Positions 6,778 to 57,721 of a DNA stretch of 64,000 nt are shown here, one piece after another. The notes beneath the pieces were generated by a model. It saw only the letters and a list, made by a program, of their open reading frames with translations. It was not told where the DNA came from and did not search any database. The stretch covers positions 390,009 to 454,008 of the forward strand of contig KL197724.1 of assembly GCA_000697665.1 (NCBI GenBank). The letters run 5' to 3'. How positions within the stretch are numbered: position 1 is the stretch's first letter; each line of letters begins with the position of its first letter. This stretch comes from Jaapia argillacea MUCL 33604 (lineage: Eukaryota; Basidiomycota; Agaricomycetes; Jaapiales; Jaapiaceae). Position numbers and translations under genes: made by a program.

Positions 6778-9700
6778 CTACTTGGTAGGGACTTCGGGAC
6801 CGACCCGAGGATCTTGGAAGGTGGAAACTCCAGTGGCGAGATTGATGAAATACAGCGTGTCGTCGGGCGAGACTCGCATTCGCCACCTAGCAGGGAGTGG
6901 TTCTGGATCAAGAACATCCGGGTGGGCTCGTGGATCCTTGAAGGTGGAAAATTGAGTCTTGGGATCAATGAAATATGGAGTACATTTAGCTGAGATGCGC
7001 ATTTCCCACGCAGCGGGTAGTGGTTCGGTATCGAGAGGTGGGGGATGGATGCGTGGATCCTCGAATGTGGCAATTCGTGTCTTCCAGTCGAAGAAATACA
7101 GCATGTCATTATCTGAAATCCTCATTCCCCATCCAGGAGGTAGTGTTTGTACATTGAGGAGTTCAGGGTGAGCGCGGCGCGGATCCTCGAAGGTGTGAAC
7201 TTGAGTTTTGGAGTCAAAGAAATATGGCTTCTCTTGAGGCGAGAGGTGCACCTCCCATCCAGAAGGCAAGGGAGGCATTTTAAAAATCTCAGGGTAACGC
7301 CGCGGGTCTACCCTGGTCCGACTCTGGGTGGTGTTGTCCACAAATTGCAACAAGTGTGATGCTTCGATCTGAAATCTCCACCCTACTGGCAATGTAGAGG
7401 ACTCAAGGGATATAGAACAAATGCGTGGGTCGTTCTTTGTTTGGAAATAGTGGATGTGATTAAAGAACAAGGGATCGCCCTCATCCGTCGAAGGGGAAAT
7501 TCCCCAACCAATAGGAAGATGGCCCGCGTCATATGCCTCCCATATTTCAGACAGTATGGGGGAGCTGTAGAGGGATGTGGAACCGGTGGATGGATCGAGG
7601 AAGACGATGTGTGCAGTATGACGGAAGCACATCTCTAAATTGGGGGGCAGCGCACCGAGGGTGTATGCCTGATGCAGCAAGGGATAGCGACTGGGAGGAA
7701 GGACGGTTGTTGTTTCGGAAGCCGGAGGCTCATTGTTAGGCAGAGAATGATTTTGATGGAGTAGCGTGGATATTGCACCATCAATCACTTTCAAACTGCT
7801 GAGAATATCCTCCGTGAATTGACTTTGCTCCCCAGTCGTCAATTGGGCGGTGATATTATTTCGACGGGATTCGATGTTGAAAGAGATTCTAAGGAGGTCT
7901 CCAATGATATCGTAGAAGACATTACCTCTGGCAATGATTGTGTATGAAGTAAGTATTGAAGCAACCTGCCAGGCTGCAGTCCCGGCAGAATCGATGCTAG
8001 GGTCATCTATGCCGAATAGACGGCGATCGTCGATGAAAGACTGCAACGTCTCGTCACATTGAAGGCCGACGAAAATTGACTTGAAATCAGGCCGGAAGCA
8101 GAGGAGCAGGGAGATGTAATACAAAGCAGCCGTCCAGGTGGATGGATGGACGGCAATCCGCCTGGATGTCATACTTGTGCTGAGCTAGAGCCATACATGA
8201 GATTGACCATGAAGCTCACCTGAGATATCCGACAAGTTTCTCGCAATCCTCCACGACCGACGTGTCGTCCTCCACACGGTACATGAAATGAAGATACCGG
8301 CACAGCCCACAGTTGGAGCAAGCCAGAAGATGGGCACCAAGGTGGGGGATTAAAGATGTGAGGATCAGCGGTTTGGTGGGGTGGTTCAAGTATTCATCAA
8401 CTAGTCTCCTGAGAGGACCACTGCATCGGGCACAGAAGGCTTCGGATACGGTACGTAAGATACGGAGGAGGAGTCGATCGGGGGTGAGGGTGCTACGCTG
8501 GACGACCTTGCTCAAGGATCTTTCCACCCACCCCCCTACTCGGGAAAGGAGATTATCAAGGGTGCGCTCAATGCCCGGCAAGAAGTTGGAGATGGTCGAA
8601 CTGGTGCCCGTTACAAATGAAAGCATGTCGTGGTATAGTCGCGGGTCGTTGAATGTTCCAACTTGAGTCTTGGAGTTAAAGAAATACAGAGAGTCATTAT
8701 CTGAAAACCTCATTTCCCACCCCACTGGTAGTGGTTGCATATCGAGAAGTTCGGGGTGTGTGCGCGGATCCTCGAACGAGGAAACTCGAGTCTTGGAGTC
8801 GAAGAATACCAGGGCATCCCTAGGCGAAAATAGCATTTCCCACCCCGCAGGAAGTGGTTGTAAATGGAGAAGTTCGGGGTGTGTGCGCGGATCCTCGAAC
8901 GTGGAAACTCGAGTCTTGGAGTCGAAGAATACCAGGGCATCCCTAGGCGAAAGTAACATTTCCCACCCCGCAGGAAGTGGTTGTATATGGAGAAGTTCGG
9001 GGTGTATACGTGGATCCTCGAATGTGCGAACTCGAGTCTTGGGGTCAAAGAAATATGACTTCTCTTGAGGTGAGAGGTGCACCTCCCATCCAATAGGCAA
9101 GGGTGTCATATTAAAAATTTCGGGGTAACGACGCGGGTCTACCCTGGTCCGACTCTGGGTGGTGTTGTCCACAAAATGCAACAAGTGTGACGCTTCAATC
9201 TGAAATTTCCACCCTGCTGGCAATGTAGAGGACTCAAGGGACACAGGACGAATGCGTGGGTCATTCCGTGTTTGGAAATAGTGGATGTGATTAAAGAATA
9301 AGGGATGGCCCTTATCCGTCGAAGGGGAAATTCCCCAACCACTGGGGAGATGATCTGCGTCATACGCTGCCCATATTTCGGACTGTACGCGGGGGTCATA
9401 TGGGGACGTGGAACTGGTGGACACATCGTGGAAGAAGATGTGCGCATCATGACGGAAGCAAATCTCTACATCGGGGGGCAGTGCACCGAGGGTGTATGCC
9501 TGGTGCAGCAAAGGATAGCGACTGCCAGGAAGGACGGTTGTTGTCTCGGAAGCCGAAGCCTCGTCATTAGCCAGAGAATGATTTAGATGGAGCAGCGTGG
9601 ATATTGCATCGTCGAACACTTTCAAACTACGGAGTATATTCTCAGTGAGTCGACTTTGCTCATCGGTCGTCGATTGGGCGGTGATATTTTTTCGACGAGA

Positions 9701-10544
9701 TTCAATGCTGGAAGAGACTCGAAGGAGGTCTCCCATATGGTCGAAAATGTTATCCCTGGAGATGGCTGACGATGAATTCAATATTGACAAGGCTTGTCGG
9801 GCTGCGGTGACGGCAGAATTGATTCTGGGGTCATCTCGAATGAATAGGGGGTTATCCTTGATGAAAGTCTGCAACGCCTCGGTGCATCGAAGGCTGACGA
9901 AGATTGACTTCAAATCAGGCCTGAAACAGAGGAGCACGGAGGTGTAATTCAAAGCTGCTGTGCGATTGGATGGACGGATGGCAGTCTGCCTTAACATCGT
10001 TCTTGTGATGAGTGAGAGCCACTGATGAGAGTGACCATGAAGCTCACCTGAGATATCCAGCGAGTCTCTTGCAATCCTCAACAACCGACTTGTCGTGATC
10101 CGCATGGTACATGAAATGAAGATACCGGCACAGCCCACAGTTGGAGCAAGCCAGCAGATGGGCACCGAGTTGGGGTATCAGAGATGTAAGGTCTGGGGGT
10201 TCGCCGGGGCGCCTCAAGCATTCGTCAACTAGTTTCCTGAGGGGATCACTGCATCGGGTACAGAAGGCTTCAGATATGGTGCGTAAGATACGGAGGAGGA
10301 GTCGATCGGGGGTGAGGATGATGCGCTGGGCGACCTTGCTCATGGATCTGTCCGCCCACCCCCCAACTCGGGAAAGGAAACCATCGAGAGTGCGCCCGAC
10401 GCCTGTCAAGTTGGAAACAGTTGAATCGGTGCCCGTTACAACTGAAAGATCATCAAGACTCCTGACTGGCAGCCACTTCCTGAATCGTCCACCCGGAAGT
10501 TCTGGCACTTCATCATCATATTCGGGTGGGTAGTGACGGTCCAT
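6778..10544 (-). CDS. Two-module protein with 14 WW-like repeats, function unknown
   Basis: Three exons, 10544-10048, 10001-8220 and 8173-6778, join in frame to 1,225 codons including the stop. Both introns are 46 nt and interrupt the same codon of two homologous modules (ATCTCAG before GTGAGC). Each module has a Ser/Thr-rich start with the motif GxGRTLD or similar, a conserved segment with LTPDRLLLRILRT, a cysteine cluster (FCxRCS, then ACSNCGLC), a helical linker of about 170 residues and seven 41-residue WW-like units, at about 339-630 and 933-1222. Units begin LPxGWE and end TFEDPR; the second signature Trp is mostly Phe, and the first unit of each array lacks the first Trp. WW domains bind proline-rich peptides, so a scaffold role is possible but is inference. 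No signal peptide or membrane segment is seen. The C-terminal module might instead be a separate gene, but the frame runs through without a stop. Confidence 0.8.
8766..9011 (-). repeat. Two nearly identical 123-nt WW-unit repeats
   Basis: Two successive 123-nt units (8766-8888 and 8889-9011) within the N-terminal WW array differ at only a handful of positions, while the neighbouring units are clearly more diverged. Each encodes one 41-residue WW-like unit. This points to recent unit duplication or gene conversion inside the array. Confidence 0.8.
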
Positions 10545-53924: not shown

Positions 53925-55001
53925 ACCCGGTGACATCGGACGTTGGTGTATAGCATGGATGCCGTAGTCTCATGGAGCGACAATCTTCCAAATAAGTAAG
54001 AAATAGGATGATTGCTTGTCTTCACGGAAGGGAGGAGGGATAAGCATGTTTGTCGGGGGTGCCGGAGATGAATGATAATGTCCAAAATGGGGCGTAGTGC
54101 CACAGACGCCGTAAGACAGTCCGTAACGACTCAACTCGGCTGAGATGTCAGGGCGCTGGCTGCCTGAGAGAAAATGGAGTGAAAGGACTGAGAGGACCTG
54201 CAGTAAAGAGGCTGAGAGGGGCTGGAACGAAGGGACTTCGGGGAGAATGAACTGATGGGTGTGGTAAGGCCTGTCAAAGAAGAAGATGGAGAGGAAAAAC
54301 GTACCATCACACAGGACAATATACTTCGGGGAGCAAAAATTAACCCAAATAATTTATAACCAGCTGGTTGCTGCTTGACATCCCTGTACACACGAATCCA
54401 GCCTCTAGACTTCGGGGACAAACGGTCGTCGACAATTTGTGCACTAAAGCTTGATAGATTTTGCGAGTGAGATGGCGCACGGTAAAATCGAACAACGTTA
54501 CACCAGATAATCCAGGTCGTTAAGAACAGACGAAGGAACGAAAGTCGGGTGAGGAAATAGATTGAGAGCACCCAGAGACAGCTTTCGCCAAGGCCATCAG
54601 TAGGCGAAGATGCAATGGCGTCTGGAGTCGTCTCACCGCTCAGAATGTCCCAGACGATGTCAGGCAACGAGGGAAAACTGCAGTGACTATAGAAGGTTCC
54701 GAACAGTGAGGGTAAAAGGCTACAATTTCTTTCGACAATATAAGGAGTGGTGGCTATCATCAGGCCCGGCCGGCCATGGTCTAAGATCGGTCCAACAGGC
54801 GATGGAAGATGTTTCGAAATCTATGGCACTCAAAGGTGCATACGAGCGCCAGCCCAATCCAATCCATGGCCGGCCAAATAGCGCTATAGGCTATGCGCTG
54901 ATTGTCTGTCCATCCTGTTGTTGCAACTTTGATTACTCCCTTCTAGTGCTTACCACAAGCTCAGAGTTATTGGTGCTATATAGGCCTTGGCTCACATCTT
55001 T
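53925..55001. other. Intergenic region with an unconvincing minus-strand frame
   Basis: A 209-codon minus-strand frame (54131-54760) contains a hydrophobic segment (VLSIYFLTRLSFLRLFLTTW) but no recognisable domain, and its C-terminal part is Ser-rich low-complexity sequence. I keep it as a possible relic only. The last about 200 nt before 55002 should hold the promoter of the next gene. Confidence 0.4.
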
Positions 55002-57721
55002 ATGCCTTCCGACCCTACCCCCGTCTACTTTGAATTCGATGATCCCTCTGCCGTCTTGAGCAATCTTGGACCAGCACACTCCGTCAGAGAGGGCAGTGCG
55101 AGCACGGCCTCGGGCCTTCCTGGACCGGGACACACGCTAGACAAGGTTATATCGAAGGTTGGGAAGCGGTTGGAGAGGTTTTTGAAAGTTGGGCCCAAGC
55201 ACATCCCGACTACCGTCTACTACGAGTTTGATGATCCGTCCAGCTTGTTGCGCGATCTTGGGTCGACGTACACAGTCGATCGGGATAGCAACAGTACGGC
55301 GTCGGATCTCCCTGGGCCAGGACGTACTGTGGGCAGGGTGTTATCGAACGCCGGAAAAGGGGTACGAAAGTTTTTGAGCGTCTCTTTTGAACGAATGGGG
55401 CGGGGACCTACGGCTATAGCAGATAGTCTCATCGTGGCCGCAGATGATCTCGTCATGGTCGAAGGTTGGCCCCTTGTAGTACGCGGTAAGAACAGGTCTT
55501 GGTCACGAAGGCTTCTCCGGACTCCTCCAACGTTTGGACTACTTCTGGAGGACATCATCAAAATGCGTTGGGGGATATCAAAAGTCGATCCTATGCACGA
55601 TCGGCAATTCGTTAACCGTTGTCGCAAGTTGGTTGATTTCCTCAGGTATGCTACCTCCACTCAGTCGTCAGCACAATACGAACCTTTGTTTCCATCCAGG
55701 GATGAGAATATCAATAAAAGATATCTCGCGGCCTCTTATATTACCGCCCTCTTACTCATACCGAACATGAAGTCAGTTTTCGAACAATTAAGAGCTGAGG
55801 ATGCCATCAAATATTCCCTTTCGCTGTCATCATTCTCTCCTCGGAGCCATGAAGACTTGCTTGCACCATCAAGACGAGCACTTGTCATGCTCTCAGAATC
55901 ACAGGCTCTTGCCCACATCAAAGAATTCAATGCTGTGACATCCAAGGAAGATGGTCCCATCTGGGTGTTCCACAATTTCATGTCGAATATTCTACCATAC
56001 TCCTTGTGCGTGTTTTGTGTGTTTTGTGTGTTTTGAAGCGATGCCTGGATTGGTTGACGTCGATTTCCCAGACTCTCCGAAACTCAAGTATTGGTAGCGT
56101 ATGGTCTCGATGACGCGTGGGGGACCTACAACCACTGGTTCAATCACGCGAGTTCTGGGTTGTCAGATGGTACCTCTCCGCAGGGCATGTTCTCGCCGAG
56201 ATTATTGGGAGGTTGGCTGGATACCCTTCTTTCAGCAGATCGGCTCTCTGCAGCTGTGTTTCGGACTCTTCTTAAGAGCCTTATCGGGCAGCCTCCGGAT
56301 TTTGGTACCAACATCGACTTTATTTTGAATCTCTCTGCATGTCTGATGCAAAGAAGCGTTTGGGACGCATACAGTGAGTCTCTTCATTTTTTCCGTCGAC
56401 TGGGCGGCCTCTCAGTCATTCTATCAAGTGCCTGATATCGACGACTTTTTCAAGACACTTGAAAGGTTTTTTTTCGTTAGATACCCAAACTGGGATGCGT
56501 TGCCTGCTAGTAAAACTGCGGTGGAACATCTGGCAGTGATGTTGTCCCGCCCTCTAAACAATATTCCATCTCCTCCGGCAGTAATCCAAACCCTCAGTTA
56601 TTGTGTCTCTCCATGCCGAGGAATTTGGTGTTCATTCAGCCGACATTGGTACTTTGAAGGCGGCTATCAATTCTGTGACCCTCGAAGCCGACTTCCTCTC
56701 CGAGTCATTCAACCAAGGATACGAACTCGACTTTGTTGCCGTTTGATTGATCACGTCGTCGGGTGAGTCTCACAGTTAAAGGCGGTGAAAGTCCCTTCAT
56801 CATTCCTAACATGGGCCCCGTACGGACTGGCTGTGTTGCTCGGGATGACCTGCGAGTGGCAATACAAGACATTGATTGTCACGCGGAGATTTCCCGTCTT
56901 CTGAGGCGTGGAACGTGGGCTCCTAAGGAGAAGGTTCATGATACTTCCATCATTGCTGCCCTTCTTCATTCCCTGGACTCGGAATTAGGTTGTCCACCAG
57001 AATCACTATTCAGGGGAGGCAACTTTCATAATTGGTGCACTGGGATCTACAAGCAGAGGACCACTTCCCCATTGGATGGCGATGCAGAAGGCTCACATGG
57101 CTCTTACGAAGTACACCCCTTTTTTGATGACATACATCAGGATCTCATGGTCGTCGCAGATAGCAGGTAGTCACAGGATATATGGCGGCATGCGTGCGGA
57201 TCCTAGGAACCCAATACTCCTGGCACACCATGAATTGTTTGGTCCGGATCCCACAAGTGAAGTACTACTGGCGCAGTCCGACTGTCTCCGATGGATTTCT
57301 GCTTCCGAATTATCATCGTACGGCGATAGCTACAGCGCCGTTACTGTGAACACCCAATGTGACCAGAAGGATTTCATTGGGTGCCTCCCTGATCGTTTTT
57401 CGATGGAAATGAAGGTTTTCTCGGTATCCAACACTTTCTCAATACCTGATACACTGTTATCTCTGGGTAGGAGGGACAAACTTCACATCTTGGCATGCAG
57501 AGTTCACGTTGAAGTGTACTGGTATCATCAGTAGGTGCGCCGTTCTTTCAAGCACCAACAATTTACTGACCATCAACCTTGATATCCTTCCTTTTGGCAT
57601 TGTCAGACAAACAAATAGATTGACCCATGCTATCACCGCAGGGGAGAGCGTTGCTCCAGATTGGCTTGAGCGCAGTCATTGTAATGAGTGTGATGGTGCT
57701 TGTTGGGGAGGGGATGAGTGA
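55002..57721 (+). CDS. Uncharacterised relative of the WW-module protein
   Basis: No WW repeats, but the N-terminus is homologous to the modules of the 6778-10544 gene. It has two copies of a unit of about 75 residues (VYFEFDDPS and VYYEFDDPS starts, then GPGHTLD and GPGRTVG motifs). It also has the segment CRKLVDFLR followed by an intron at 55646-55699 that splits the same Arg codon in the same phase as in the WW gene, then YITALLLIPNMKSVFEQL, matching YTSVLLCFRPDLKSIF there. The cysteine cluster of the WW modules is absent. The C-terminal part differs (SACLMQRSVWDAY, SLHAEEFGVHSADIGTLKAA, RRGTWAPKEK, then a Cys-containing end HCNECDGACW). Introns also lie near 56006-56072 and 57165. Frame usage is awkward around 56.57-56.8 kb, so the model there is uncertain and the gene may be damaged. 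Confidence 0.55.

Follow-up and report, generated by a model that had tools for sequence, protein, structure and literature searches.

Introduction

WW domains, singly or in pairs, are normally viewed as adaptors that recognise proline-rich motifs. Here we consider a gene of the basidiomycete Jaapia argillacea whose predicted protein carries fourteen WW-like units in two series of seven, and ask how such a gene was assembled, whether its units are WW domains, and what a chain of them might do. The gene lies in a stretch of 64,000 nucleotides, hereafter the window, that corresponds to C16:390009-454008 of a 43.7 Mb genome.

Results

A gene apparently fused from two tandem paralogues

When the three exons listed in Table 1 are joined they give 1,224 codons with a single terminal stop, and the encoded protein runs from a leader through a helical module and seven WW-like units to a second module followed by seven more. 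Both introns measure 46 nt, read GTGAGC...CACAAG and interrupt the frame in identical phase, so that the one open frame over three exons described in an earlier note on this DNA is borne out. The same note had reasoned that a start codon between the modules would point to two separate genes. An in-frame ATG is indeed located at the joint, and a shorter product starting at module 2 may be possible from it, but the frame stays open there, crossed by a stop-to-stop frame of 653 aa, and as no stop lies between the two parts the upstream frame must read through the joint.

Table 1. Features of the fused gene, in window coordinates
Feature	Position	Strand	Content or basis
Whole fused gene	6778..10544	(-)	three exons, 1,224 codons
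Exon 1: leader, module 1 (first part)	10048..10544	(-)	splicing, paralogue comparison
Intron 1, 46 nt	10002..10047	(-)	splicing; homologous intron in L010 and L011
Exon 2: module 1 (second part), array 1, module 2 (first part)	8220..10001	(-)	
WW-like array 1, seven units	8639..9478	(-)	N1 N2 N3, three middle units, first C-cap unit
Fusion joint	8630..8632	(-)	passage from L011 array C-cap similarity to L011 exon 1 similarity
Intron 2, 46 nt	8174..8219	(-)	homologous to intron 1
Exon 3: module 2 (second part), array 2	6778..8173	(-)	
WW-like array 2, seven units	6805..7647	(-)	N1 N2 N3, one middle unit, three C-cap units

The origin of this arrangement becomes clearer from two paralogues, L011 and L010, that lie directly before the window on the same strand. 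Each has a single module followed by 26 WW-like units, with an intron at the homologous place that is likewise 46 nt long and starts GTGAGCTTCA; even within this cluster, then, fourteen units are exceeded. One WW unit of L011 is interrupted by an in-frame stop (L011:1619) and the array of L010 by frame breaks (about 2200-2560), all of which were left as read with none restored; these could mark the two genes as pseudogenes or stem from errors of assembly. The common plan of the arrays in the cluster is three units at the N-terminal end, a variable middle and three cap units at the C-terminal end. Along the window gene, similarity to the L011 cap stops at 8632 and similarity to L011 exon 1 begins only at 8630, which is why module 2 has no leader; the joint has removed this leader together with the two C-terminal repeats of array 1.

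Module 1 shares 83% and 74% amino acid identity (in its two parts) with L011 and only 74% and 68% with module 2, and as module 1 is nearer to L011 than to its partner in the same gene, we read the window gene as an in-frame fusion of two diverged tandem paralogues, brought about, we infer, by deletion or unequal exchange. The N-cap units of the two window-gene copies are nearest each other (78%), which suggests that exchange between them has occurred. When parts of the module and N-cap units are compared in pairs, dN/dS lies between 0.35 and 0.72 in all 18 comparisons.

These comparisons do not support the earlier picture of one module duplicated in frame with its repeat number kept, nor that of selection on the whole architecture. 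Duplication of a single module is rejected on the identities just given. The equal count of seven and seven is coincidental rather than inherited because the two arrays are made of non-equivalent units (Table 1), and selection for seven units is rejected on the same ground and because the paralogues carry 26. As for the whole architecture, the intron and its phase are common to the paralogues, and module 2 lacks both the leader and a conserved Gly.

The units have a WW fold and have lost the second tryptophan

The whole protein matches the Pfam WW family (PF00397) with 168.8 bits against a cut-off of 26.9 (E 2.1e-50). Within it seven stretches pass individually at E<=1 in the protein scan, and a genome-wide WW search recovers 6 of the 14 window units as separate matches at E<=0.001, so the expected agreement with PF00397 is clear for the protein and for these units; the assignment of the others, units 1-3 of each array in particular, depends on where they lie and how they are spaced. 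The spacing is mostly 41 residues, in arrays of 7 or 26 units. The residue pattern noted earlier was found again, with the first Trp in 12/14 window units, a DPR ending in 13/14 and Phe at the second-Trp position in 8/14; Trp occurs at the latter in 0/14. Across the whole cluster the first Trp is present in 61 of 66 units (it is missing from unit 1 in all four arrays) and the second in none, and the two-tryptophan signature is therefore absent. As a control, 11 of the 13 other WW matches read in this genome, from 14 such matches listed, do have Trp at the second position.

Two further Pfam families match inside the WW arrays, namely GxGYxYP_C (E 1e-7; 32.5 bits, above the cut-off of 27; best stretch residues 968-1040, which are units 2-3 of array 2) and an Imm33-like family (24.1 bits, below its cut-off), and we interpret the two as cross-matches caused by the WW-like repeats. 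At E<=1 the Pfam scan of all 1,224 aa turned up no HECT, C2 or PDZ domain, and hence not the HECT domain that marks an Rsp5/NEDD4 ligase.

Four units of array 1 modelled with AlphaFold (pLDDT 90.7, pTM 0.79) each have three strands, as in the WW fold, and every linker contains a helix. Single modelled units superpose on ITCH WW3 (4rof) at 0.7-1.1 A, the former value over 35 columns. Taken together, the Pfam match and this model support the view that the 14 units have a WW fold, although units 1-3 of array 1 are modelled nearly entirely below pLDDT 50. The array is predicted to be rigid; VIA-align returned no match spanning the whole of it.

Among known proteins, array 1 matches ITCH by sequence (E 3.9e-17). 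The matched stretches of ITCH and WWP1 contain units in which Tyr or Phe stands in for the second Trp, the one in ITCH being WW4, so replacement of this residue alone is not new. What sets the present genes apart from the NEDD4 family and from KIBRA and MAGI is the number of units (7 or 26), the loss of the second Trp in all 66, and, for the window gene, the negative search for HECT, C2 and PDZ domains noted above. According to PMC6744271, the WW tandems of KIBRA and MAGI are also made rigid by linker and helix.

As to the origin of the repeat within the genome, the highest mean similarity to the array repeat among seven units compared belongs to a WW unit of an Rsp5-like protein on contig C42, and by consensus score a unit on C7 leads over it. 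The Rsp5-like locus L014 (C42:3000-12500) has Phe at the second-Trp position of its third listed WW unit. At L013 (C7:366500-375500) an Rsp5-like gene is followed by two shorter WW-containing frames that resemble partial copies, the last of which is absent from the matches of the WW search, showing that this search missed at least one unit.

Variation between units concentrates on the ligand face

Codon counts were made over 49 of the 66 units, after dropping twelve N-cap units, three others for length or start and two with an internal stop codon. In these 49 units the positions where pN is clearly above local pS are 16, 20, 21, 23 and 25; at position 8 the excess is minimal (0.646 vs 0.643), and no other position shows one. 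Measured against global pS with bootstrap intervals, the ratio is 1.42 (1.25-1.62) at position 8, 1.25 (1.03-1.46) at 14 and 1.33 (1.18-1.51) at 25; for positions 16 and 3 the interval is not above 1, and position 3, which is off the ligand face, is as variable as position 16.

We take positions 16, 18, 20, 23, 25 and 27 to correspond to Tyr28, Leu30, His32, Gln35, Thr37 and Trp39 of YAP, and so to make up the ligand face. This set of six includes four of the five clear positions (chance 0.002, or 0.006 counting position 8). For all six canonical contact positions together local pN/pS is 1.07 (0.88-1.33), and their pN ranks only modestly above that of the remaining positions (p 0.04); two of them, 18 and 27, are conserved. 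The set 16, 20, 23 and 25, which was picked after the per-position result had been seen, has 44 non-synonymous to 16 synonymous differences, compared with 144 to 134 at the other 27 positions (24 disjoint nearest pairs, Fisher p 0.0016). Position 27, that of the second Trp, is Phe in 45/49 units, with pN of 0.06 vs local pS of 0.98.

There are 40 distinct combinations of the six variable positions in the 49 units, and the six core positions are identical in 48. The nearest unit lies within the same gene for 26.2 of the 49 units, vs 17.8 expected, which we count as support for some homogenisation among the units of one gene. The ligand face is thus more variable than the rest of the unit, and this suggests diversifying selection on it, in a pairwise pN/pS method that ignores shared ancestry and is further violated by exchange between units.

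The helical module belongs to a large family

The module, recognised by its GxGRT motif, occurs whole or in part at no fewer than 65 loci on 29 contigs, where matches within 2 kb were merged and some are fragments. In 13 aligned family sequences the second Gly of the motif is kept in 12 and missing only in module 2 of the window gene. Among the loci found, with places compared by eye, WW matches stand beside the module only in the three C16 genes; at 11 other module loci that were read (a set from which L034-L036 are excluded), the module continues into other multi-exon sequence. The window itself holds a further multi-exon family member at 54984-57534 (+), in which the motif region is present twice and WW gives no match. 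Members L029, L030, L031 and L033 likewise contain two GxGRT motif regions close to their N-termini.

Sequence searches of the module against Pfam, NCBIfam and the PDB gave nothing credible, and in Pfam no signalling domain was recognised in it. Neither NACHT nor NB-ARC was found, at E<=1 in the protein and E<=10 in the module, so that the domain that defines a NOD-like receptor was not recovered. AlphaFold models the module as helical, and since block means of pLDDT are 60 or less we make no claim for its fold.

Discussion

The multivalent binder of proline-rich partners that was guessed at for this protein can be judged from the residues of its ligand face. Val, Leu or Ile occupies position 18 in 5/49 units and Thr position 25 in none, and the His for the tyrosine of PPxY is present in 3/49 and lost in 46. 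According to PMC6744271 the Tyr of a PxY-type motif cannot be engaged without this second-hairpin His, and PMC4301871 assigns the second Trp to the proline pocket of WW domains. With the second Trp in 0/66 units and the His in so few, plain PPxY binding is unlikely as far as sequence can tell, and the guess does not stand in its original form. Binding through Tyr16 and Phe27 with altered specificity is another matter: a modified proline or peptide binder is possible because the Phe at the second-Trp position is strongly conserved, and such a groove may exist in the 30 of 49 units that keep Tyr or Phe at 16 together with an aromatic residue at 27. The Tyr and Phe at this place in the matched Itch and WWP1 sequences would agree with it, as would the Phe of the C42 Rsp5-like protein, and ITCH WW4 has been solved in complex with a TXNIP peptide (5dzd). 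Set against the residues lost at positions 18 and 25 and the missing His, we nonetheless regard proline-rich binding as distinctly unlikely. The main rival to selection on the face is relaxed constraint, which also fits ratios near or slightly above 1. In this account the chain would be a structural spacer, a stiff rod of variable length that has kept the WW fold, lost ligand binding and let its face drift neutrally. It draws on the missing Trp and His and on face ratios that are mostly near 1, but the Phe at position 27 is under strong purifying selection, which speaks against simple relaxation, and positions 8, 14 and 25 exceed global pS with intervals above 1; we hold the spacer to be rather unlikely.

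It may also be that the cluster family is decaying, given that two of its three genes have a stop or frame breaks in the array, and a stronger version would make the window gene a chance, non-functional fusion in a cluster becoming pseudogenes. The broken arrays of L011 and L010 fit this, as does a module 2 without its leader and without the second Gly of GxGRT. On the other side, 1,224 codons run without an internal stop, the introns match in ends and length, dN/dS stays below 1 throughout the 18 comparisons (though much of that divergence may predate the fusion), and single-base assembly errors could account for the breaks in the neighbours. We consider a non-functional locus very unlikely.

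The reading that we prefer, at a probability of roughly one half, is that of a multi-site recognition array, attached to a helical module, that diversifies in the way the WD repeats of Podospora hnwd genes do. Proteins of this family would join the module to a chain of WW-fold repeats, the window gene being two such proteins fused. We propose that the chain is a stiff scaffold that holds successive units at fixed spacing, because each keeps its WW core and a short helical linker. Every unit would then present a ligand-type face in which a conserved Phe is ringed by positions that differ from unit to unit, so that the array would most likely form an extended multi-site recognition surface. Its specificity could shift through exchange, gain and loss of units and through substitutions on the face, as in the hnwd WD repeats, and the helical module might transmit or anchor the recognition event.

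Support for the comparison comes from studies of Podospora NACHT/WD genes, for which PMC1805685 describes concerted evolution, four selected codons on the WD interaction face and inactivated copies; PMC4986451 extends the same mode of evolution to the ANK and TPR repeats of fungal NOD-like receptors. The hnwd genes of Podospora anserina (PMC1805685) thus resemble the present cluster in arrays of variable length, exchange between units, variation on the interaction face and broken copies. They differ in that here the repeats are WW rather than WD, no NACHT is recognised, and the helical module has no assigned fold. As no NOD domain is recognised, we claim only a similar mode of evolution and not membership of the NOD-like receptor family. 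Going further, the WW chain could be the recognition repeat of a NOD-less fungal family of non-self or immune receptors, with the Phe as anchor, a hypervariable pocket and a new helical read-out module at 65 or more loci, of which the window gene would be a two-headed fusion, but we think this extension unlikely.

A scan of prokaryote and viral contigs with a three-unit piece of the array confirmed no relative, and in the titles and abstract openings returned by a literature search there is no paper on long WW arrays in fungi. In this cluster the WW fold occurs as a long regular array in which one signature residue is missing from every one of the 66 units and the binding face is variable. Should it prove to be a recognition array, it would be a new repeat type beside the WD, ANK and TPR repeats that diversify in fungal recognition genes, and a large uncharacterised family of fungal modules would become linked to a possible role in sensing.
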